Source: Tethya wilhelma
Taxonomy: Eukaryota; Porifera; Demospongiae; Tethyida; Tethyidae
NCBI GenBank assembly: GCA_964030475.1
Contig: CAXIPT010000002.1
Span: 9,816,984-9,880,983 of the forward strand
Reading direction: 5' to 3'
Length of the DNA: 64,000 bases
Shown here: in pieces, positions 1,922-42,934 of the stretch
How positions within the stretch are numbered: position 1 is the stretch's first letter
How the letters are laid out: every line of letters begins with the position of its first letter
Notes under the pieces: generated by a model
What the model was told of the DNA's origin: nothing
The model's database searches: none
The model's input: the letters and a program-made list of their open reading frames with translations, nothing else
Translations under genes and position numbers: made by a program

Positions 1922-4900
1922 ATGTATAAAACAGGTGCTCTGATTGTCAACAGTAGCAAGCTCCTCCTACCAGCTCTGGCAGCTGCCTCTAAGGTGGTCA
2001 GTGGTGTTCTTTACATTCCTCTCCACTGTTCTGACGTTGCCAATGGAGACAACAAAACAACATTGGCGGCCGCGGAAAATTCTTCTCAGCTTGTACAAGA
2101 AGATAACCTGCTTTTTGAAACCTCCCGTCAAGTGAAAAGCATCTATTTCCAAGCGTCGAGACAGAATCCTCTTCTTGACGTTCGCATCTTGCTTCCTCCC
2201 CTACCTCCTGTCAAACTGGACATGAAAACCAGTTTACCTCGCTTACAATACGACAACATCGACATCCTTTTGAGTCCACTTTCCACTCTAGAAGAAGTCA
2301 AAACATCGGCCGGTTACAAGCTTCTTTCTCAGCGAATCAATTCCAATCTTGATCCTCGTTTTGAAACCATCAACGTAGCTGCCGACCAGTTGCAAGATAT
2401 CAAAACGCAATCCCAATCCCCAGAATCCAAGCTGCTAGCATGTAATGACGTTGTGCTTGGCGGCACCTTCGACAATATCCACAATGGACACAGACTTCTG
2501 CTAACACACAGTGCACTGCTAGCCAACTCCCGCGTTGTCGTCGGCATTTCAAGCGGCCCTCTACTTTCAGCAAAAATCCTCCCCGAGTTGATCAAGCCGA
2601 CCGAGAAAAGGATTTCCGACGTAAAAGCACTGTTGACGGACGTGAAGCCATGGATTGAATACGATGTGGTGCCTATTACGGATGTCTACGGGCCTACTGC
2701 TTGGGACGACAAACTGGACTGTCTGGTTTTGAGTCCCGATACGATGAGAGGGGGAGAGATGGTGAACAAGGAGAGAGAACGAAAGGTGACCCACGTCTTT
2801 CACAAAATTCACTGGTATTTACTTGACTTGTACGTGTCCTCTTTGTGTGTAGGGTCTCAAATCTCTGAAGCTACACTTGATCGAACTGATCAGTAGAGAT
2901 GACCTTCAAGGTAGTGAAACTGATACCCACAACTTGGCGCAGGAAGAGAAGCTGAGCTCTTCTGACATTCGACGGAACATGCTAGGTCGCTATCAAATAC
3001 CAGCTGTGAGTAGTTACATACCGCTAAGCATGGTTATATTAAGTTATGCTAAGGCTTTTGGTGCATATAATTTATATCTTTTGTGTTCTTGCAATTTCAG
3101 GAGTCCAGTTGCCTAGCAACGTATGACTTGTCAAGAGGGCCTTATTTGATTGGACTGACAGGAGGAATAGCTGCGGGAAAATCGTCCATTATGAAACGCC
3201 TTGTTGAGAAGGGAGCTTATGCAATTGACTGTGATAAGGTGTGTGTGTGTATGGAAATTGTTTCTGATACTTGTAATTAATCATTTACTGTCCATAGCTT
3301 GGCCATGAAGCATACAGACAAGGGATGCCATCTTTTAGCAAGATTATTGAAGAGTTTGGTGAAGGTAGGTCTATCGTTACTACCCTACTTTTGTTGCTGG
3401 ATATTTTCAAGACAGCTGAGTAAATTTGTGGACCATTTTTTAAAGGTATCCTATCAGAAAGTGGTGAGATTGATAGAAAAATTCTTGGACCGCTTGTCTT
3501 CTCGGACAAAGTAAGTTTTTAATCCTCTTTGTTTATCTACTCACTCACAGCTAGTTGACCTGAACTACCTACAATTCAGTGATCTTTTTGTCCTGTATAA
3601 TAGGACAAACTTGAAAAGCTCAATGGTATTGTTTGGCCTGAAATTTGGCGGTTGACCCAGGACAAGATTCAGCTTGCTCACTCTGAAGGTTATCGTGTAT
3701 GTGTTGTAGATGCAGCTGTCATGCTGAAGGCTGGGTGGCACAAAGACGTGCATGAGATATGGGTTGCCATAGCATCAGAAAAAGAGGTTAGTTATAATAC
3801 TTTCAGTATGTATACAAAACAAAGAATTTTAATTAAGCACAAAAGAAATTCTAAAGAATCATAACCAACTATAAAAGTTGAATAGTATACACACATTCTA
3901 ACTGAATAGTTGTACATGTTCATGCATAGTGATACAATAACCAAGTGTTTAAATCATAATTACGTAACAGTAACTGCTTAAAACATAATAATTGTTATTT
4001 ACATAAGTGTATGCTTTACATGGTCAGTCTTTTACTCAGCCTTTTGTAACAGCACTTGTTGTGCCAACTGGATTGGGTCAGTGTTAGCTGTAAGGCTAGT
4101 TTCTTTGACAACAGTTTCTGTAGGTGCTTCATTTTGTTCAGGTGATTGCTTTCCTTCCACTAAACTTTGTATGTCCACAACATATTCCTTTGGCTTGTGA
4201 CCATTCGACTCAGGGTCTTCTTCATCCTTTATTTGCTCATCTTCATTATCTTGAAATTCAGCTAAAGTGTTGTAGCCTTCTGGTGACTGTCTCTCTTGGC
4301 ACTTTTTGTAGCAGTGATGGATTTTCTCATAAACATGGTACATCAGGATCAGTACAAATTCTCCCAATGCTACAGAAGTTGAAATATAAACTGCTGCTTT
4401 CTGGTTTCCCTTTGTTTGGTGCACGTAGCCAGTGACAGCTGCCAACACTCCCAGGTTGATTATGAAGGAGAGCTCCAGTGCTGTGAGGTAGTTGTTCTTG
4501 TAAACCCCTCCTTGAGCGAGATTTAACGTTGCTAGGAGAAAGACAACCAAGATAATGACGAGAATATTCACAGCTGGATCGCCAAAGATGTTGAATATAA
4601 ACACCAAGACCAAAACAACTCTTACTGCGAGCAAAAGTCCAGTCCAGTAGCCATACTTAGGCTTGTATGGACCAAGATAGGCATCGAATATAGGCATGTA
4701 CTTTGGTACCCACTTTAAGCACATCTTGTGTGACCATCTTCTCAGAAACTGCACGGTTGTGAGCGTGAGTGTGTAAGGGATCAATGCCACGAGGAAGAGG
4801 ACCGCTACGAGAAGTAACGCAATGTGTTTTCCTCTCCCAAATTCAACATTTCCATCATATAGCCACAGAGCCCTTCTTCCATCTGGATAGAGAAGTGTGG

Positions 4901-7900
4901 TGAATGATAAAGATGTGATAATCACCCTTAGCAACTTGGTGAAGGATAAGAGAAAAAGCGTTGCCAATACAGGCACAGCATGGTTTCCAAAGATATGAGC
5001 GAGAGTGATATTCTTCCTTGCCCCTGTGATAATTATGATCAAAATAAGCCACATGTAGAGAGGAAAGATGTACTGTAACCAGGTTTTAGCATACGAGTCC
5101 ATTCCATTGTAAAAACATGTCTCGATCCCAAGGTCAAGGTTCACCCACGAAATAAATACTTTGAGGAAGCTGCTGTCTCCCGAAGGAAAGAATATTGTTT
5201 CATTTATTTTGACAATGTTAGCATAAAAGATAAGACCATTAATTGTTCCTATGGAAACTGTGAGCTCTAATAAGAATAGCAATACCACTAGACCTAGTCC
5301 TGCCAGTGCAAATGCTACAGAGAGAGCTAGATACTTGTTCGAACATGATAGACATTTTGATGTCCCAAACACATGACTTAATCCTTCTTTGCACTCTCCA
5401 CAAAGAGTCCCTGTGCGATTGAAGGCACATTGTTTGCTTATGTTTGGTTCATTCATAGTGATATCAATGGGTGTGGTCTTACAATAATCAAAGGGGCAGT
5501 GGTCATGAAGCAGGAGGTGATTTGAATAGTTACTTAACCAGTAAGGTGGTAAGCGTGTAATGTTTCCTGTTGTGATGTCACAGTCTGTCATGTTTCTTTC
5601 TATTAGTTGAGTAGCACAGTTGCAAATTTGATAGGTATAGTCTGAGGCTTGACTTCCTAGTTCAAAACCAACTGGACATGGACGCAGTCTAATCACAAGA
5701 AAGAGTGGAACACTCTTTAGAAAAACCTTGTCTGCAAAGAATGTGATGTTCACAACTTCCTGTCTATCTCTGATAATGTTATTAGTTGATGCATAGTATA
5801 TCCAGTCTTTACATTCTCTGCCTATTCTCCTAGAAGTGGTTGCCAAGGGTTTGATCACAGTAGCCAGAGAAGGTGTGTTTCCTTGGCGCTGTCCAGCACC
5901 AACCATGGACACTGAAATTGCTTCTCCCGGATATTTTGTAACTATATAGGTATTGTTCTCGCAATCTTTGATACCATTTCTACAATAACAGAGGCTTTCA
6001 GCTTTTGAGGAGATCATGGAGTTGGTTTGAGGCTGGCCTGTAAAATTACTCAAGGAGTCAAATACAAAGCTTCCATTACCGACTAATTTAAGGAAAAATG
6101 CTGAAGGAGAAGACGCAATGCAAAAATCAATGTTTCCACCATACACCGCATCACCAGCAAGGACAGCAGTGTTATTAATGAAAGTCATTTTGGTTTTCAC
6201 TTTCGATATAGGTGTGAATGCAGGATCAAATAGTTGGACAGGACAAGTGAAATCCGTAGACAAGTCTTCGTCTGTTATATATATAGCACCTCCTCTATTC
6301 AGTGCAAAGTTGTTCTCAAATGTTATTTGAGTTTGAGGATCCAAGTAAACTACTGAGTCTTTAGTCAGATATAAAGCGCCGCCAAAGATTGCTGTGTTAT
6401 TGATGAAGCTGTTGGTCCCACTGAAGTAGATATTGCTGTCTGTTGCATGTATAGGAGAGTGGAAATTATCTGTAAATATACAGTTTCGTATTGTCACATT
6501 GTTCATGGAAGAAAATTTAAGATTTCCCAATAACTGAATGTTGTCTGCCACAACATCATACTGTGCGTAATCTTTGATTATAGATACTGTGTCATCACTT
6601 GGCTGGTTCTGAGTAATCCTCGAATTCTCAATCACTAGTTCTGCATACTTGCTATTTCTAATTAAGTCTTTAGCCCAAAGGATGAATGGTCCATCAGACG
6701 GATGTAATATGTCAACTAAGTTAGCCGAAATGTTAGAGTTTCTCATAACAACTCTTCGAGTAATTGGTCGTACATTTAGATTAAGTCCCGTTGCAAATTC
6801 TATCAAGATTGCTCCCATCATGTTTCCAACAAAGCTACTGTTTTCAATCCTTAATACTTCGACTGCACCTTCTGTCTTCTCTGTTCTTTTATCATTTCTA
6901 CACTGGTGTGAATCATTTCTGGAATCGTAAACCCCAACAATCAATGTCAAAGCTGAAAATGATCCAATAAGATAAAAATTTCCACCCAAAGACTGCGTCA
7001 AACCATTACCAAAGTTGCTATGGCAGTTCTGAATTAAAACAGATGAATTGACAACTGTTTCATACATTACTAAGTTCATATTTGCTCCAGAAATAGCCGC
7101 TGAGTTGGCTAAGAATGAGCTTCCTTTAAGAAAAACCTTCAGACCATATGATCGTTGTGCCATAAATACACCTAATCCACTTCCAATCAATCTGTGTGTA
7201 GAATCATACACCCCTGTCACAAAATCTACTCCTGTAGCAAATGTACTCTCTTTCACTGTTAGGTTTTGTTGTATAGCATTCTCTTCAGTACATGATTCGA
7301 TATCACCATACAGCAAAAGTGCATTTCCTCCTTCACAGTTTGCTAATTCAGTCTGATTCAAATTCAGATTGCTGCAATGACTCGCAGAGACTATATTGTT
7401 GTCCACAAACTGGGAAAAGAGTATTTGTGTAGTGCCAATGAGGTTGATTCCCAATAATCCATGCCCTGTGCTATTTCTAACGTCCACCAAAGTCAAAGTC
7501 AGTGAGTGAATATTCACAGCAAAGAATGCCACATTTGGCCTATTTTCTATCTTTGTTCTGAACCCAGTCTGAATGAAGAGTGCATCTTGTACCAGTTGAG
7601 GGCTTAGTTTAGCACCACAGTTCAGTATTTCTAAGTTTCCGAATGTCAAGTTTGTCACATTCAAGAAAGCTAGACCAAATGGTTGTTCACACACAATCTG
7701 TACTGTTCTGAATCCAATGCCTGTAAGAGTGAAATCTGTAACATCTCTTATGACCATGTGTCCTTGAAGATCGATTATGTGTGTTCCTTCGGCAAATATC
7801 AAGGAGGTATTTGAATGGAATGTGAGCAAACCTTGAAGCTGACACTTGTACAAGTCTTGGAGGGTGAAACATTCTTCCTGGGTCACATTCAAACATCTTG

Positions 7901-31603: not shown

Positions 31604-32747
31604 ATGGATACTTTTGGAAAAGTAAAGTTTCTAGTGGTAGCCTACTTCTTTATGGTAGTATGGACCGTCTTGTCCTCTGTGAAACTACTCTGGGCCATCA
31701 TCAAGCATCCTTTTCTCGCTTTCAAGAAAAGTAAGAGGCTTGTCCCACCTGCCTGCATGACCGACCCCTCTCTGGGCAAGCACGAATATGTCACAGCAAA
31801 TGGCGTCAAGTTTCACTGTGTCACTTCTGGAGATGATTCAAAGCCACTTTTACTACTTCTTCATGGCTTTCCAGAGGTATGTACAGCACAGTACTGACAG
31901 TCTGTAACTTTAAATGCATTGGTGCATCAATGTCTTTTTTTTCCTTTTTTTCCCCTGTTCACTCACACACACATATCAGTTCTGGTTTTCATGGCGTCAC
32001 CAGATTCGTGAGTTCAGCAAGGATTACCATGTTGTAGCTGTCGACCTTCGTGGCTATGGGGAAACAACCAAGCCTCCTAACGTTAGTGATTACACCCTTC
32101 ATATTCTGTGCCAGGACATCGCTGAGCTTGTCCCTGCACTTGGTTACGCTAATTGCATCCTTGTTGGTCACGATTGGGGCGCAGTCATAGCATGGCAGGT
32201 GGCGACAAAACACCCGGACCTTGTCGAGAAGCTGATCGTGCTGAATTGTCCACACGGAAGAGTTTTTCGAAAGTTGCTTGTTGGAACATGGTCTCAGTTT
32301 ATGAAATCGTGGTACATACTCCTGTTTCAGGTTCCAATACTTCCAGAATTCATGTTCTCCATGCGAGACTTTGCTTACTTTAACATTGTCTTTCGTGGGA
32401 GAAAAGCAGGCGTGAGAAATCACAATGCGTTCCCGCCCGACGCGGTCGAAGCTTACAAATACGTCTTTTCCCAGCCTGGTGCTTTAACACCACCCATTAA
32501 CTATATCCGGAATGTTTTAAGCCTCGTGTGTGACAAAGATGATACCCAAGGAAAGATTGTCGACACTCCAGCTCTCTTGATTTGGGGGGAAGACGACTTG
32601 TTTTTGGACTCCTCTTCACTGGAGGAGCATCGAAGTTTTGTGCCGAAACTTTCGATAAAACGTATCCCAAACTGTAGCCACTGGGTCCAACAGGACCAGC
32701 CTGACACCGTGAACCAGTATATGCGAGAGTTCCTCAAGAATGAGTAG
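31604..32747 (+). CDS. EPHX4: Membrane-anchored epoxide hydrolase-like alpha/beta hydrolase
   Basis: Two exons, 31604-31876 and 31980-32747, giving 346 residues. An N-terminal membrane anchor (VVAYFFMVVWTVLSSVKLLW) precedes the hydrolase fold. The oxyanion motif HGFPEFW spans the splice junction. The nucleophile Asp is in GHDWGA (residue about 156), the acid in GEDDLFL and the catalytic His in CSHWVQQDQP. Overall similarity is to EPHX4/EPHX3 rather than to soluble EPHX2, so an ER-membrane enzyme acting on lipid epoxides is likely. The YIYVFSQPGAL...PINYIRN-like block is typical of this group. Paralogy within EPHX3/4 is not settled. Confidence 0.88.
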
Positions 32748-33367: not shown

Positions 33368-36300
33368 ATGGAGTCCAGTTTATGTTTTGGTGACAAAGTA
33401 ATGCTCGCTGTCAAAAACAGTGAAGAAACTGTCCAATTTTCACAAAATGATGACCAGCAAATGGAAAGATTAGATTGTAAGTCACTGCTGTGCTATGCTA
33501 ATATTGACTACTTATCGACTTAGCATATTATTCTATGGTTGATTATTCTATGGTAAACTATAGAGTCAGAGATCAATGTATTATCTTCAAACTTAACTTT
33601 AAATGCTTCCTTTTAGCTCTGACACTACAAGTAATGGCAGTGAAGACATTTGAAGCACAGAACAAGTTTCTTGAGTTGAAGGGGAACCAAGAGAACAGGT
33701 TCGAATTCCTAAACGTACACACACACATGCAGCTGACTCACATATCAATTGACCATGCATGCTTATACTACAAAATCTTTAGCCCAGCATCAGAAAAGGA
33801 TCCTTTACTTCATCTGGCAAAAGTGAGTGGTTATAACTCAGTGACTAGTATATAAATGAATGCTAAGTAGCTACCACTGTCACCATGGCAATACTGGTCT
33901 GTATTACATATGCAGATCGCAGCACAGCTTGAAGAGATGGACAACATTGCTCAACAGGAGAGAAAGAATGGCACAGATATCTACTATGGTGACAAGATAC
34001 AGGTCAGTCACAATGATCAGGTAGTTATGAATTCACATGCTGGAAATAAGGATCTCTAAAGTCAAGTTAGGTTACGTTATTTGGTCAGATGATAACCCAT
34101 GCATATACATGTGATTTCTTTTGGCCATAGCTACAAGATATTGAGTCAAAGATGTACATGGCTATAGGGAATGGTGAATCGTCTCTAAGTCAAGAAGTCC
34201 AGCTGAAGGCCAGTGGTGATGCAGAGGTATATACACACTGTACATGTATTACTGACCTGTAATAGGCATGCATAGTGATTATAGCCTAATAGGTAATGCT
34301 TTGTACATGTGTTCTGTTGCATGAATAGGTGTCTTTTGTGAACATTGGAAATGGGTCTAACTGTGTATTTGAAATCGTTTCTCTTGATGACAGTCTGACG
34401 TTTTTAGACAAGGTATGTATAATTATAAGATAAAACCATGCATAATTTATGCTCAGGTTTGAATTATTCTAACCATTAAGCCTTCACTTGTAATGTTTAC
34501 TATACTAGGTATGCTATGGACAAGAAGTGCTTCTTCGTAGTGATGCTAAAATCGAACTTCTGGCAACATTGTAAGCATTAGTTATGTACATACGTACATG
34601 CAGTGCTGTAAAAACTTAACTGCATGCATACTATATAGTTTTATTCCCTTATTCTTAGCTCTCCAGATGCAAACGAACCAGTTGCTCCACCATATCAGCC
34701 TGATAATGAAGAAGACACTCCTTCTCCAACTCTGTCATCCTCGCAATCAACTTCATCTTTGCCAGCTGAAGAAGTGCCATCTACTGCCACAATGTTTGAA
34801 GATAGTGAATCAAGCTTAGCAGCTGCTAGCACCTCATCTCAAAGATACGTAAGCTATAAACTTATGATTGTATAAACTAAAAGCTGGCATGGCTTGTTTG
34901 ATTTGCCTATTTTCTCTAAACTGGCAGAGATCAGATGAAGCTCATGACTTTGTTGAGCAGCTGCTTGGACATGTTAATCCAAAGCTGAAGGCAAAATGGC
35001 TGAGAAAGAAGTACTACAGACACCTTCAACCTATTTCATCACTTCTTACTAATCTACAGCTGAAGCTCTCGGAGGATGAATGGGTGTCCAGCTTTGTTAG
35101 CTCACACAATAAAGGTCATGTGGCTCTTTGTGAGTTGATCAAGGATCTTGCTGATTTTCCTGTAATTGTAAGAAAAGGGAGCAAAATGAAACGACAACTA
35201 CTCAAAAGAGATCCTGTGAGTCCATAATGTTTCATCTTTCATTGAAGTACAGATATATTGATGCGATCTCTATGGTTACTATTTGATCTGTTAACTAGAT
35301 TGATCTTGAATCTGCCCTGATTTGTTTTCTTCTACTTGTCATAAGTAAAGTAAGTAACTGTTAGATCAAGTTAAATAATAACTTTCTTAGTGGATGGTCA
35401 TCATGATATTTTTTTTATAGGATGGATTAGATGCAGTTTGTAGCAGCGATTTCTCTCTGCATGTGTTGGTCCACTGCTTATACAGTCCTCAAATTCAAAG
35501 CAATCCAGTAGTGCACATCCTTGATGTACGTACCATGGCATGTATGCATTCTCTTCAATGCATGCATTCTGTCACCTGACTTTAAGTTTAATATGTGTAT
35601 TATAATATTTGATTTTCAGATATTGTGTGCAGTAATGTCAGTGTCAGCTGCTGATCATAGAAATGTGGTGGAAGTGTTTGATCAGTTCAGAATAGAAAAG
35701 AAATCAAGGACCAAATTTGACGTGATAATATCATCATTGAAAAGCGAAACTGTATCATGCAACTACAAGGTATAATATAGTAATTTTATTATAGTGCGAA
35801 ATTACCTGATATATAAGCCTTTGATAAATTGATACACCCTTATACCCCCCACCCTCAAAATGACTATGCAAATTTAAGAATCTCCTTGCAGCTCTTGCAT
35901 AAACAAAACTTTAAGCACAAAAAATTTGTGATGGTTAACTCAGGGTGTCATGGGTTAGCCCTCTCTTGTTCTCATTTAGCCTTGTTCCCAGGCTTTCCCT
36001 GGTGTATATTTTATATTTTGCGAGTTGCAAAGTTAGGTATACGATGCTAGTTCTCATCATCTTGTTGCTTCAAACAGATTGCTGTTGTGAGGTTCATCAA
36101 CTGTGTGATGGAAACAGCTCCAGAACCAAACAAACGAATCTTGTATCAGCACGAATTCACAGAAGCTGGGTTTAATCCCGATGAATTCAAACTTGACAAA
36201 GTAAGCTATAGTGCCAAATGTATGATGAATGCATTAGCATAAAGTTCACTAATGCTATCATATCTTGCTTAGTTTATGCATACTTCAGAAGATGAAGCTA

Positions 36301-39300
36301 CGAGTCGACAGTTGGTACTTGAATTGGACAAGTGGCGAAATAATTTCATAAATGTTCATCAGTTCATCGAGGAACGAGAAATGTTCAGAAAAAGAGCCAA
36401 TGAAACTTCAGCAATGGTAAAATTAATTTATACATAATTATGTGTGATATACTGAAACAATCTTTGTCATAAGAGTAACAATTTGTATATAGTATGTGCA
36501 TGTGTGTGTCTGTGATTTCATGTCACTGTACATGCATGCAGCTGGAACAAGCTGAAAGACAGCTGGATGATTTTCAATCTCACCAAGAAACCCTTCAAAA
36601 ACATGTAGCCAAGGTAATTCTACCTTTACAGTAACTTTTTACAAATAATTGCTAACTGTAATGTTTGCTGTTTCATTTTCATGTGCCGTCGATCCATAGC
36701 TGACCGAAAAGATGGACTTTGAGAGCTTCAAGAACGAAATGTTTCACCTTCGAAACAAGTCCATTGAAGAAAAGGTAAAATATAAAATTAATTTACTAAG
36801 TGTGGCACTTTACAGTCCATAGCAATTAGTTTAATTCCTGTGTGCATTATAAATTCATAGTTGAAGGAGACACAGAGGAATCTTCAGGAAACTAAATATC
36901 ATCTTCAATCTACTCGTGAAGAGTTAGAGCAGGTACAGCTATAGTATAACTAAATTCGTTGCATGATTATAAAGTACCATGTAGCACAAAATATTGGCGG
37001 AAGTAAAATTTGGCAGATTGTCAAAAATTTCACAATTGGCGGATTTTATTTTGGTGGTAGCACAGGCGGTACGCAGCAATACACTGACATATTCCATATG
37101 TGCCGTGCAAAAATGACTATTTCGTGCATTTAATATTTGACAATCCTTACCTAACTTCCAATCCGCAATATTATAATTCACCAAATTTTGTTCTATACGG
37201 TATTATGTGCATGGTTCACAAACCGCATTTACCACAGGGCAAATCTGAAACCATTGAATCCAAAAAGATCCTATCATCAGATTCAAGAACCTCCGGATCC
37301 AGTCCAGTTCCATCTCATCCCGATACAAGCTCACCTCCTTTAGATGATCAGAAGTCATTGTCAAACCACTCACTGCAGAGTCCCATGGAAGAAAGCCCAT
37401 TATTGAAACATTTCTCAACATTCATGACTTCTACAGCTACTCAACTCACACCAGCAACCCGTATAACTTCATTTTCTCAAACAGATTTGAATGCGAGACC
37501 ACCAGATTTAGATGAATTTGATCCAAACCTGTCTATGATTTCTACAGCTGCTCAACTCACACCAGCAGCACGTAAAAGTTCATTTTCTCAAACAGATTTG
37601 AGTGCAAGAGTACCAAATTTAGATGAATCAGATCTACGCCTACCTATAGCAACTCAACTGACACCAAGAGCACGTAGAAACTCATCTTCTCAAACAGATT
37701 TGTGTGCAAGACTACCAGATTTAGATGAATCTGACTTACGCCTGTCTATAGCTTCTCAACTGACACCAGTAACACGTAGAAATTCATCTTCTCAAACTGA
37801 TTTGAGTGCAAAATTGCCTGATTTGGATGAATCTGATCTACACCGCAAAAGCACTCAAAATTTTACACCCAAACGTAGTACCCAGATGAAACTAACTTCT
37901 GTAGAGACTCAGACAACCCCTTCAATGCCCAAGTTAGTTACTTCTTCTTTACAAGTTGTCATGGAAGATGTAGAAATGAATGAAAATTTTCCTCCTCCCC
38001 CAAACTACATACCCAGTTATCCTGCTTCACCTAATCTTAAAGACATACCCAGTTCTCCCACCTCTCCTATCTCCAAAGACATAACCAATTCTCCCACCTC
38101 ACCTCTCTCCAAAGACATACCCAGTTCTCCCACCTTACCTGGTCACAAAGACATGCACATAACCAGCTCTCCAAACCTACTCACTCCTAAAGACATACCC
38201 AGTTCTCCCAATTCACCTTGTAACAAAGACATACCCAGTTCTCTCAGCATACCTACTCCTAATGACATACCCAGTTCTCCCAATCCACCATCTTCTCCCA
38301 ATTCACTTCACCCTCAAGACATACCCAGTTCACCTCATCCAAAACATCTCACTCCAACAGTGAGTGCTCCTTCAATCTGGCTTCAATCACCCAAAACTAC
38401 TCCTCATGCCTCCAATTTATGTAAGTAAATCTTAATTGAGCTGAAGTGTCTTCAGTTTACGTTAGATCTATTTTTTTATAGCAATTCCTAATTCTGATGA
38501 CGACTCCACACCATTTCCTCAAGTGAAAATCACAACTGATGAAGAGGATACCTTGACTGAGCCATCTATAGAAAATGATACCACACTGTTTACTCAGCAA
38601 GGTAGAGTGTAATATAGTATGATATTATTGTCAAGTTTAATAGTTATACCCCTAGGATCATGCATAAATTATTATTATTCTCTGAAATTGCATTATTTTC
38701 ACTACCTAGCTTGTGCATGATGCCTGAGAGTGATAAAAATATGGTCTCATGTTCTATATATTCATGATAATACACTGCAGGATTAGAACAGCGTCGAAAT
38801 ACTGTTATTGGCTACACTGAACAATCTTCTTTGGCTCCACCTCTTAGGAGAACTCACCGAATCTACTCACTACCTGAGGTGAGATCAAAGGAAAATAATA
38901 TTGCTTGCTCACAATTAATGTTCATATTCTTGCTCAAACCATTTTAATTTGCTCATATGCACGTACAAGCATTTATTGTCATCAAACAAGCCACATACTC
39001 ACATGTTATTGTTGCGTGGCCAGATTTTTATAAAAATTTCTTTGCTCACTTATTGTAGTTCCCTAAATAATGATATAATTATATATACAGTCATGCCATA
39101 TGATTGATGTGAGTGGGACTAAGTTGATTATGGTCAAGCCTATGCACTTTAGCAATTAAATAGGACAAATTCCATTTCCTGAGAATTGCCTATCTTCCTC
39201 ATTGTCAAACTTGATAACTATTTACCATAAAAAATAATGGATTAGAAAATTTATGGTGTGTTATATTTAGTATTAGCCTGCCTTTTCTTTCTAAATTTCA

Positions 39301-39625
39301 GCTTAACATTAATCCTGATGAAGTGGAGAGGGTTATGAATCAAATTGCTGTGATTGATGCCTACATAAAGGGAGTAAGTCACTCAAGTCATACATTATAT
39401 CTACATACATCATATGTGGGTCTGTATGGGGTTACTGAAACTACTATACTATATCTATATATACTGAAAATAAAGTCTCAGTGCAAGCATGAATAATGAT
39501 GTAACGAGTTGGCTCTACAGCCTCGTGGAGCACACGGAGAAACGTCGGGAGACACTGGAAATGTAGTTGATTTGTCTAACAAACACCGTCTAGGATATTC
39601 TGTGGTGGAGCTCATACAACCATGA
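33368..39625 (+). CDS. IP3-receptor N-domain / formin FH3 fusion protein without FH2 (1135 aa)
   Basis: Exons: 33368-33476, 33617-33698, 33783-33822, 33916-34002, 34131-34226, 34329-34412, 34509-34570, 34659-34848, 34928-35215, 35299-35349, 35421-35525, 35620-35769, 36078-36200, 36273-36416, 36542-36613, 36700-36774, 36861-36932, 37238-38420, 38482-38601, 38781-38878, 39302-39373 and 39521-39625; the sum is a multiple of three. Residues 1-187 resemble the N-terminal beta-trefoil of IP3 receptors (LCFGDKVML, EAQNKFLELKG, LLHLAKIAAQLE, YYGDKIQLQDIESKMYMAI, YGQEVLL). Residues 251-537 match the formin GBD/FH3 armadillo region (WVSSFVSSHNKGHVALCELI, ILDILCAVMSVS, FINCVMETAPEP). A coiled coil follows to about residue 610, then Ser/Pro repeats. 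No FH1 polyproline run or FH2 domain is present before the stop. A Rho-GTPase- or calcium-signalling role is inference only. Confidence 0.82.
36945..37205. repeat. Imperfect foldback element in an intron of the fusion gene
   Basis: Ends accatgtagcacaaaatattggcgga and the inverted tccgcaatattat...ttttgttctatacggta pair imperfectly over about 250 bp. It lies between the exons 36861-36932 and 37238-38420. Confidence 0.5.
37430..37846 (+). repeat. Coding tandem repeat: four units of about 35 residues with an SQTD motif
   Basis: Units run ATQLTPxxRxxSxSQTDLxA-RxPDLDExDLxLSI. The four copies are about 105-111 bp each and lie within exon 18 of the fusion gene. Confidence 0.85.
38037..38340 (+). repeat. 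Coding tandem repeat KDIPSSPxxP
   Basis: About nine copies of a 10-14-residue unit, KDIPSSPTSP-like, near the 3' end of exon 18. Low complexity, Ser/Pro-rich. Confidence 0.8.
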
Positions 39626-40144: not shown

Positions 40145-40421
40145 ATGATCAGGCGCAGACGTTCAGGCATCAGCATCTTAGCCTCTGCCAATGAATCCAA
40201 TGTGGATAGAGTCAGAAAGTCGAGAGAAGATGGAATTATGAAAAGCAAGACCAACAAGCTCAAAATGGTAGCCAGTAGTACGTAAACAAGACTACATGGT
40301 GTTTGATAAATTATTTCAGATGAGATAGTGTTTGAAAAATAAACTGCAGTACAGTTAGGTGTCTTATTATCATGTCTATTTAGCACTTCCTTTCAATCCC
40401 TGCACGTGTATATTTATCCTT

Positions 40422-40501
<80 letters not shown>

Positions 40502-41132
40502 AGAGCCCATTCCCTGAGGTGAGAGGAGTTCCTCTAAAAGAGAATCGTAGATCCCGTCGTTTCTCTGAAGTCAAGAAAAGCCTTCTCTTTGAAGCAGAAG
40601 AAGCTTCTTCTGCTCTGAACAGTCCTGCCGCTAATCACTCTCAATCTTCGTCATCAGTATCCTCCGAGAGGGGAACTGATGTGGGGCACGAGGAACAAGG
40701 GGGCATGGGGGCTAGTCAAACTGGACTGACAGGTTTGATAAGGCCGAGTGATGTTGCTGAACTAGAGAAACAGCTAACACCAAGATCAAAAGGAAGATTC
40801 GAGGAGAGTGAAATGAATGGTATGTCCCTTTTATAAACCTTAGTATTACTGGATCGAGGATAACTATAAGATATACATAGCTTTTACTGTAATGTAAGGA
40901 TTGGTGTGTTTAACATCTGTACATTGTAGTTGACAAATGTACAAAATTACCGTAAATTGGGAAATTTTCTCCTTGAAGTTTTTTTTGCCTCTAATGTGAG
41001 TGGCAATGGTTACACGCGAGAAAATTTTTGGAGAAAAATATGTGACTGAATCGGTTAAAATGATGAAAATAAAGCAAGCAAAAATTTCCCAATGTATGGA
41101 TGTGGTATTTTGACATGACGTGCAAGCATTAA

Positions 41133-41182
<50 letters not shown>

Positions 41183-42934
41183 CACACAGTTCAGAGTCCA
41201 GAGCAGCAGACAGTGGCCATTCGCTCTATGTGGGACAATGTTGTCTCTTGGATGAAGAAGGCAGTTGATATGGTCAGTTATGAAGAGCCTCTGGATGCTG
41301 AGCCAGTTGTAGAAGAGGAGCTGCCTTCCCTGAGCAAGGTATGCAGTGCTCTCAAAGATTCATTTACTGTAGAAGTAGAATTTTAAGTTTTCCTACGTAC
41401 CATTTTATCAATCTTTCATCTTCTCCCTCACAGAAGCGACCCTTAGCTGATGCTAATGTCACCTTACCTGATCCAAAGCTGCCTAGAGTGAGTGAAAAGC
41501 CACGAGGGATCCTTGCTGCTGGTGATGGTGGTAGGAGGAGAGAGAGCATTGGTAGGAGACAGCGAAAGAGAGATGGTAGAAGGATGTCGTCTTTTGAAGG
41601 ACTGAGAGCAACAGCCAAGAAGAATGTTGAGTAAGTGAATAATTTATACTACGATAGTTAAACAAGGGTGCTAGCAACAACCAGTTCAATAGCTGTGTCA
41701 GAAGTAGCGAAGTGATGGATCTCTCGCTTTCTCTCTCTCTCTCTCTCTGAGTGTGAATGGTAGAGAGAATCTTTAATATTGTTTTTTTGCATTATTTTTT
41801 GACCAGATCTGATGGGTTAGTTGAGCTCTTAGACCTCGAACCGATCTCTGAAAAGGAAGAAGAGGCATCTGTCAAAAAGGCCACACCCATTCCTCCACCC
41901 ACTTCTGCAACTTCCACCTCCAATCAACCCAAGCCTAATAACGAATCGACCCCTTCCATCAAATCACCAACGAGCTCTCTTGCAAAGAAACTCGGCAATT
42001 TCTTATCAATGAAATCACCCTCCCAGCAAGGAAGCCCTCAAAAACAGGAGACAAAACCCGCTTCAAAGAAAAGAAGGTCTTTGCTGTCAAAATCGAAAGG
42101 ATCTAGTCTTGATTCTGCAATGGAAGACAGTCAAGATGGCAAAGAGACTTCAAATTCTCCTATGAAATCCAAACAGCCCAGATCATCAAAAGTGCCACTT
42201 TTAGAGCGATCAAAATCTGAACTTTTCATCACATCTTCAGTAGCTTCTGGTTCTAATCCTCCGGTGAAATCAAAGAGAAGAAAATCCCTTTCAAAAATGA
42301 AGACATCCAGTTTAGATTTAGGCCACGAACCCTCAAAATCTGGGGGTAAAGATTTGAAAAAATCATCCTCGAACCCCGAAGGAGTCGATGAGCCTGATTC
42401 AGCAATACCTCCCATTTCTTCGACACAATCGTTCAAAAAAACTCCTGTCAGATTTTCTGCCACAAATTCGTTCATGAAATCGCTTCAAGCACACCAACCG
42501 AAAAACGAAGGATTGAACTCTCTTCTGGATGGGTCGCCAATGACGACTAGTGCTGGCAGTAAGAGTGGTTTCAGTTTCAAGAAGAGAATCAAACGGCCTC
42601 TGCTGAGAGAGTACTATGGCAACAGTGTTAATAGTCCCAACCTCACCGAAGTGCCTAGTGCTTCGATCACCATCAGGAGGAGCCCGCGACTGGCAGGTGA
42701 GAGGTTTGAGATAAATGTGTGTACGTTTTCAACAAAGTTTTTTTATGACTAAAATATTTAAAAAAAACTATAATAATAAGGTTAGAGTTTTGAGATAAAG
42801 TTTTTGAAAAGTTTTTGATGGGGGAAATATTTTTTAGGATCACTGTAATAATATAGCTAATATATAGCTCATCTGGTCACATAGGAATTTAAGTATTTGT
42901 TGTTTTGGTGGAAATTTAACTATGTCGTTTATTN

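Follow-up and report, generated by a model that had tools for sequence, protein, structure and literature searches.

A predicted sponge gene that places an IP3/ryanodine-receptor-type trefoil in front of a formin DID-DD region

The N-terminal trefoil of the Ca2+-release channels is not known to us outside the N-terminus of IP3 and ryanodine receptors (IP3R and RyR). A locus of the sponge Tethya wilhelma raises the question of whether this domain can also stand in front of the DID-DD region of a formin within one protein, and of what such a protein might do. The window analyzed here, i.e., a stretch of 64 kb, contains at 33368-39373 on the plus strand a gene that, on Pfam evidence, begins with an N-terminal trefoil of the IP3/ryanodine-receptor type, continues with a linker, and then enters a formin DID-DD region. 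From its sequence, the locus is predicted to encode these three parts and, after them, a probable coiled coil; a G domain, an IP3-binding core, and an FH2 domain were not detected.

The initial annotation of this DNA did not know of any described protein with this domain order, and our literature search, which covered open-licence papers, likewise found none. A large protein collection, queried with residues 1-620, with the FH3 part, and with an alignment of the gene and its two paralogues, returned no match; it returned no ordinary formin or IP3R either, so that it seemingly holds few animal proteins and the absence is uninformative. The genome_contigs and viral_contigs collections gave 41 and 89 pattern matches, respectively, with no relatives among them.

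Gene model and domain content

Splicing of the region 33368-39625 at GT-AG introns yields an open frame of 1118 residues without exon 35299-35349 and of 1135 residues with the 17 codons of this exon, which has counterparts in the two paralogues, named P1 and P2. Its inclusion raises the Drf_GBD score of the same piece from 7.8 to 23.9 bits, and removal of intron 33699-33782, which gains support from the IP3R-like gene on C3, where a phase-2 intron lies four alignment columns off, raises the PF08709 score from 33.7 to 37.4 bits on comparable pieces. Seventeen exons of the gene are stop-free, and all the features are collected in Table 1. The frame and the count of 1135 residues given in the initial annotation were reproduced, while the exon that closes this frame, 39521-39625, lies mostly inside a kinase relic, which leaves the 3' end of the gene uncertain.

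Table 1. Predicted exons of the gene and the relic at its 3' end, in window coordinates
Feature	Position	Strand	Content and basis
Exon 1	33368-33476	+	Start codon, first trefoil strand (SLCFGDKVML); splice model, hhalign against IP3R-like paralogue
Exon 2	33617-33698	+	Trefoil; splice model, PF08709
Exon 3	33783-33822	+	Trefoil; PF08709; preceding intron 33699-33782
Exon 4	33916-34002	+	Trefoil; 87 bases, same length as counterpart in the C3 IP3R-like gene
Exon 5	34131-34226	+	Trefoil; splice model, PF08709, intron comparison
Exon 6	34329-34412	+	Trefoil; holds segment aligned to the IP3R HS loop
Exon 7	34509-34570	+	End of trefoil; PF08709, intron comparison
Exon 8	34659-34848	+	Linker, acidic, Ser/Pro-rich; P1 and P2 linkers there differ in sequence
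Exon 9	34928-35215	+	Start of DID; identity 46% to P2, 47% to C1, 35% to P1
Exon 10	35299-35349	+	DID, 17 residues; counterparts of the same size in P1, P2, and C1
Exon 11	35421-35525	+	DID
Exon 12	35620-35769	+	DID / FH3; PF06367
Exon 13	36078-36200	+	DID / FH3; PF06367
Exon 14	36273-36416	+	Dimerization domain (DD); PF06367 match reaches through; exon common to P1, P2, and C1
Exons 15-17	36542-36613, 36700-36774, 36861-36932	+	Probable coiled coil; splice model, intron comparison, coiled-coil proteins weakly matched in PDB (paralogue profile)
Exon 18	37238-38420	+	Low-complexity tail, 102-base and 36-base repeats; splice model
Possible further tail exons	38482-38601, 38781-38878, 39302-39373	+	Splice model only, open; no relative backs them
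Decayed C-terminal creatine/arginine-kinase-like segment	39464-39619	+	Genome protein match, Pfam PF00217

Regarding the first half, PF08709 matches at 37.4 bits in the N-terminal piece and at 32.7 bits in a 620-residue protein, both above the Pfam cut-off of 23 bits. Among PDB sequences, the trefoil finds ITPR3 (E 1.6e-4) as well as ITPR1, and a trefoil profile built from the three paralogues finds ITPR1 best (E 0.0011). The same three-paralogue profile aligns with the IP3R-like genes of the sponge genome at 98.1% probability (E 1.3e-13, 159 columns) in an hhalign comparison that had no parallel control. The IP3R N-terminal domain that had been read by eye in exons 1-7 is borne out by these matches. 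On C3 (C3:4.704-4.739 Mb), two of the IP3R-like genes lie about 25 kb apart and are 96% identical over the N-terminal domain, and the sole PF01365 match beside this pair reads through two stops.

The place of the gating tyrosine of the HS loop, which we take, partly with reference to IP3R1, to be that of Tyr167, is occupied by Asp in this gene (in a gap-free alignment) and by Lys in P2, and in P1 one alignment gives Phe and another Arg; Tyr is kept there in all three IP3R-like genes of the genome that were looked at. A channel-gating role of the trefoil is therefore unlikely. The domain could still recognize IP3-receptor surfaces, so as to join or cap the N-terminal ring of the receptor and tie Ca2+ stores to formins or actin. 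Such a role would suit a trefoil that is IP3R-like by profile and by common introns, and two precedents can be cited for it: the IP3R suppressor domain uses its HS loop, in which Tyr167 is important, to touch the neighboring subunit, as part of PMC6385359 describes, and the N-terminal regions of ryanodine receptors assemble on their own, as part of PMC3969220 reports. We nevertheless regard it as quite unlikely, given the replaced tyrosine and the divergence of the trefoil, which in this gene is 30% identical to that of P2 and 24% identical to that of P1.

As for the second half, PF06367 (FH3) matches at 35.3 bits, above its cut-off of 27 bits, over profile positions 1-170 of 193, which are taken to include the DD. 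PF06371 (Drf_GBD) reaches 24.3 bits in the 620-residue protein, under its cut-off of 30.1 bits, with a match limited to profile positions 58-187, i.e., the DID part. Hence, two of the three families named in the initial annotation are found above their cut-offs and the third is not. Against PDB sequences, the DID-DD region finds FMNL2 (E 2e-14) and also FMNL1, and the joint profile of the three paralogues finds FMNL2 (E 1.3e-26) and the ITPR1 suppressor domain (E 1.6e-4), each at the right half, along with DIAPH1 and INF2. The PF06367 score together with FMNL2, DIAPH1, and INF2 places the region in the DID family, in keeping with the formin FH3 region annotated after the linker, and a DD appears to be present, from which dimerization may be expected. 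An attempt to read the DAD-binding residues of mDia1 from the alignment was dropped, the alignments by eye and by HMMER being one position apart.

The Rho-binding G part of Drf_GBD (profile positions 1-57) has no Pfam match in the gene, while the complete formin on C1 matches positions 2-186. In addition, MIR, RIH, and ion-channel domains are absent from the Pfam matches of the gene's pieces up to E 10. Because the G part and the IP3-binding core are both unmatched, the earlier proposal that the protein couples Rho-GTPase or Ca2+-store (IP3) signals finds no support, and Asp at the gating tyrosine also speaks against the latter.

An FH2 domain was matched by Pfam in no piece of the gene, and a search of the whole genome (124.6 Mb, 204 contigs) placed all its 26 FH2 matches outside the 64 kb. 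Moreover, ten peptides that the C1 formin encodes in its FH2-region exons gave no convincing match in the window, the best (E 0.038) being a Lys/Glu-rich stretch. The lack of FH2 noted initially stands, and the accompanying suggestion of a function other than actin nucleation fits it.

The long tail exon matched no Pfam family. It contains in-frame tandem repeats at 37424-37841 and 38007-38282, consisting of 102-base units with SQTDL, two of which carry RRNS, and of 36-base units with KDIPSSP; by sequence, the two RRNS sites resemble basic-kinase targets. The neighbors on the same strand are an alpha/beta hydrolase gene upstream (31914-32747; PF00561, 91.4 bits) and, downstream, what is apparently the next gene (40145-42752), basic and Ser-rich, whose 331-residue ORF has no Pfam match.

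Related genes and the origin of the two halves

Own locus aside, the first 603 residues of the gene match the genome at C2:3403227-3403526, C1:7313003-7314028, and C2:3397418-3398675, and more weakly on C62, each time through its FH3 half; the other hits, all weak (E 0.018 to 0.85), involve the coiled-coil part. Trefoil exons lie upstream of both FH3 copies on C2, those of P1 having been located by eye. The two genes are P1 (C2:3393233-3399754, 697 residues with its own stop) and P2 (C2:3400582-3405180, 671 residues in the spliced part), and in both the trefoil is followed by a linker, the DID, the DD, and a coiled coil. Their FH3 scores are above the cut-off (38.4 bits in P1, 30.3 bits in P2), and their trefoils, found in the expected place, stay under the 23 bits of PF08709 (18.1 bits, E 0.0015, and 18.7 bits, E 0.0011, respectively). 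Because two related genes of the same genome carry the same join, this looks like a real and undescribed protein family. The trefoil exons of P1 are apparently tandem-duplicated (by eye), at about 5960-6900 and 6950-7900 of the extracted stretch L047 (C2:3.394-3.396 Mb), the second set being partial at its start.

The paralogues also bear on whether the gene model has merged two neighbors, one coding for a trefoil protein and the other for a DID-DD protein. Intron 34849-34927, which lies between the halves, does contain an ATG in frame with exon 9, and a block duplication of two neighbors could likewise have preserved the order in P1 and P2. However, this intron measures only 79 bases and its phases match, no stop separates the halves, and both paralogues show the same order with matching phases and with linker exons in between. 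A merger is thus highly improbable, and the trefoil and the DID-DD region, in the order first annotated, probably belong to one gene. A bacterial promoter scan of the same intron was empty, which is uninformative for an animal host.

The C1 gene (C1:7.312-7.320 Mb) is a complete formin, with GBD at 74.9 bits (profile positions 2-186), FH3 at 38.1 bits, and FH2 at 230 bits. Its FH2 starts with P-M-L-N-W followed by TIF and, by eye, has F as the second lasso aromatic and a proline at -4, common to FMNL and to the formins related to Multiple Wing Hairs (MWH), called MWHF; such marks (lasso F, proline at -4) characterize these two groups according to part of PMC5047451. A tree of nine DID-DD sequences, with this gene, P1, P2, the C1 formin, FMNL (C62 and human), and diaphanous but containing no MWH or MWHF, separates the first four from FMNL and diaphanous with 98% ultrafast bootstrap, and the branching inside the group is weak (51-58%). 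By elimination, the C1 gene is likely the local MWHF. In the DID-DD region, this gene is 38% identical to C1 (182 columns), 32% to P1, and 28% to P2.

One stretch of FH2 exons occurs twice in the C1 formin, near-identical by eye (about 3620-4965 and 5057-6403 of stretch L046, C1:7.315-7.318 Mb), as either a real duplication or an assembly artefact. The C62 formin was rejected as the nearest relative, being FMNL-like, with 54% identity to human FMNL2, 53% to FMNL1, and 22% to this gene; it is without one of the common introns, its FH3 stretch lying in a single open frame.

Intron positions were compared on an alignment built blind to introns. In the DID-DD stretch, all seven introns of the C1 formin fall at the same column and in the same phase in this gene; six of these columns, all in phase 0, are common to this gene, P1, P2, and C1, and the seventh is held by this gene and C1. 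The eighth intron of this gene is found in P1 and P2, so that each of its eight introns in the compared stretch is matched by at least one relative.

In the trefoil, four of the seven introns of this gene agree exactly in column and phase with another gene, three of them with an IP3R-like gene. One intron keeps its column and phase across the whole set of five genes (the gene on C10 contributing three exons only) and another in four of the five, and two further introns of this gene are exact in one or two other genes. A third position is occupied in four of the five, with this gene one column off, and the remaining two introns, which lie near the start (one in phase 1, the other in phase 2), are 4 to 11 columns from same-phase introns in C3a and P2; for P1, the alignment puts the phase-1 intron at a distance of 58 columns. 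This agreement is judged to support the gene model as well as both origins, formin and IP3R-like, and the evidence of sequence traces the DID-DD half to a formin like the one retained on C1.

The 3' end and the fate of FH2

In a comparison with creatine-kinase proteins encoded in this genome, among them the intact two-domain gene on C3, the segment 39464-39619 is 45% identical over 55 aligned columns, with two stops read through, and it scores 33.9 bits with PF00217 when the stops are set to X. The initial annotation had overlooked this relic, which lies under its last exon. It could be that the relic was recruited as the true last exon, the 1135-residue protein then being correct, as the frame, the acceptor site, and the stop of exon 39521-39625 all work. 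Yet the similarity reaches into the preceding intron across two stops and, by eye, apparently resumes past the stop of the exon in another frame (MIDGVNALWGL), perhaps to about 39660, and neither the end of P1 nor the spliced part of P2 has a counterpart, so that we hold this recruitment to be unlikely. A real kinase domain was ruled out, the aligned columns numbering 55 only, with two stops inside and the apparent frame change behind. Since the similarity crosses two stops into the intron and continues in another frame, exon 39521-39625 is read as kinase relic sequence, whether taken up by the gene or not.

Regarding FH2, P1 has none before its closing stop. About 3.4 kb downstream of the last spliced exon of P2 there are FH2 exons. 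Six of them are matched at E values of 1e-18 to 0.08; they lie on the minus strand, framed by a pair of 101-base inverted repeats that are identical to each other (6118-6218 and 7551-7651 of the extracted stretch L049, C2:3.408-3.410 Mb). The last two FH2-region exons are on the plus strand, and the first two were not found. The inverted run may stem from a recent inversion, a haplotype difference, or an assembly fault. With these exons downstream, either the P2 line once had an FH2 that is now disrupted, or the remains of a neighbor lie there.

The FH2 remains and inverted middle exons behind P2, together with the kinase relic at the 3' end of this gene, could be the signs of a decaying formin copy that has lost FH2 and is heading to a pseudogene. 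Such decay appears distinctly improbable in view of the 17 stop-free exons, of P1, which also closes with a stop and without FH2, and of the first DID exon, which is still 46-47% identical to P2 and C1 (35% to P1).

Possible role and comparison with known systems

The closest precedent, which the initial annotation did not mention, is MWH. According to the parts of PMC5047451 that deal with it, MWH consists of DID-DD and lacks G, FH1, and FH2; it is reported from arthropods and some nematodes, and its DID-DD goes back to the MWHF/FMNL formin branch. Part of PMC4346269 reports that the GBD-FH3 fragment of MWH binds a CC-FH1-FH2 fragment of Dia directly and that mwh antagonizes dia; the Dia fragment was without DD, and the authors left it possible that the two act independently.

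Since fly MWH has the same formin remainder and opposes dia, the sponge gene may, by analogy, encode an MWH-like formin antagonist or scaffold in which a channel trefoil replaces the G domain, and we give this reading about an even chance. Through the DD and the coiled coil the protein would dimerize, and its DID-DD would attach to a functional formin, or to a partner of that formin, and restrain or position it while building no actin itself. The trefoil, at the former place of the Rho-binding G domain, would be a docking module directed to a partner of IP3 receptors or of the ER surface, this docking role being a guess, and the Ser/Thr-Pro-rich repeat tail would form a disordered part controlled by phosphorylation.

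A wider scenario is doubtful, though worth stating: the Rho-sensing G domain of an MWHF-kind formin may have been swapped for an IP3R trefoil, and FH2 may then have been lost (in two of the three copies, the third being apparently broken), giving formin antagonists or scaffolds whose docking sites are Ca2+-release channels or the ER, in parallel to and independently of arthropod MWH. If FH2 was lost here independently of the arthropod case, formin antagonists lacking FH2 evolved at least twice, and the control of actin by such proteins may have a longer history and a broader reach than the fly example implies. Moreover, a trefoil on a formin-derived protein would be usable as a free module, and it offers a way to ask what this domain binds outside the channel.

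In comparison with known systems, the gene shares with IP3 and ryanodine receptors the N-terminal suppressor domain PF08709 (by Pfam, PDB, profile comparison, and common introns) and differs from them in that MIR, RIH, and ion-channel domains are unmatched and the gating tyrosine is replaced. FMNL and diaphanous formins belong to the same DID-DD family and provide the best PDB matches, but this gene is outside both in the tree (98%) and has neither G nor FH2. To MWH-related formins, of which the C1 gene is likely the local one, it is tied by DID-DD sequence (38%) and by all seven C1 introns, whereas the C1 gene has the G domain and FH2 that are missing here. Finally, with arthropod MWH and the MWH-related proteins of nematodes, as part of PMC5047451 presents them, it has in common a DID-DD region without G, FH1, and FH2, and it differs from MWH in the IP3R-type trefoil placed before the DID and in the long Ser/Pro-rich repeats that follow the coiled coil.
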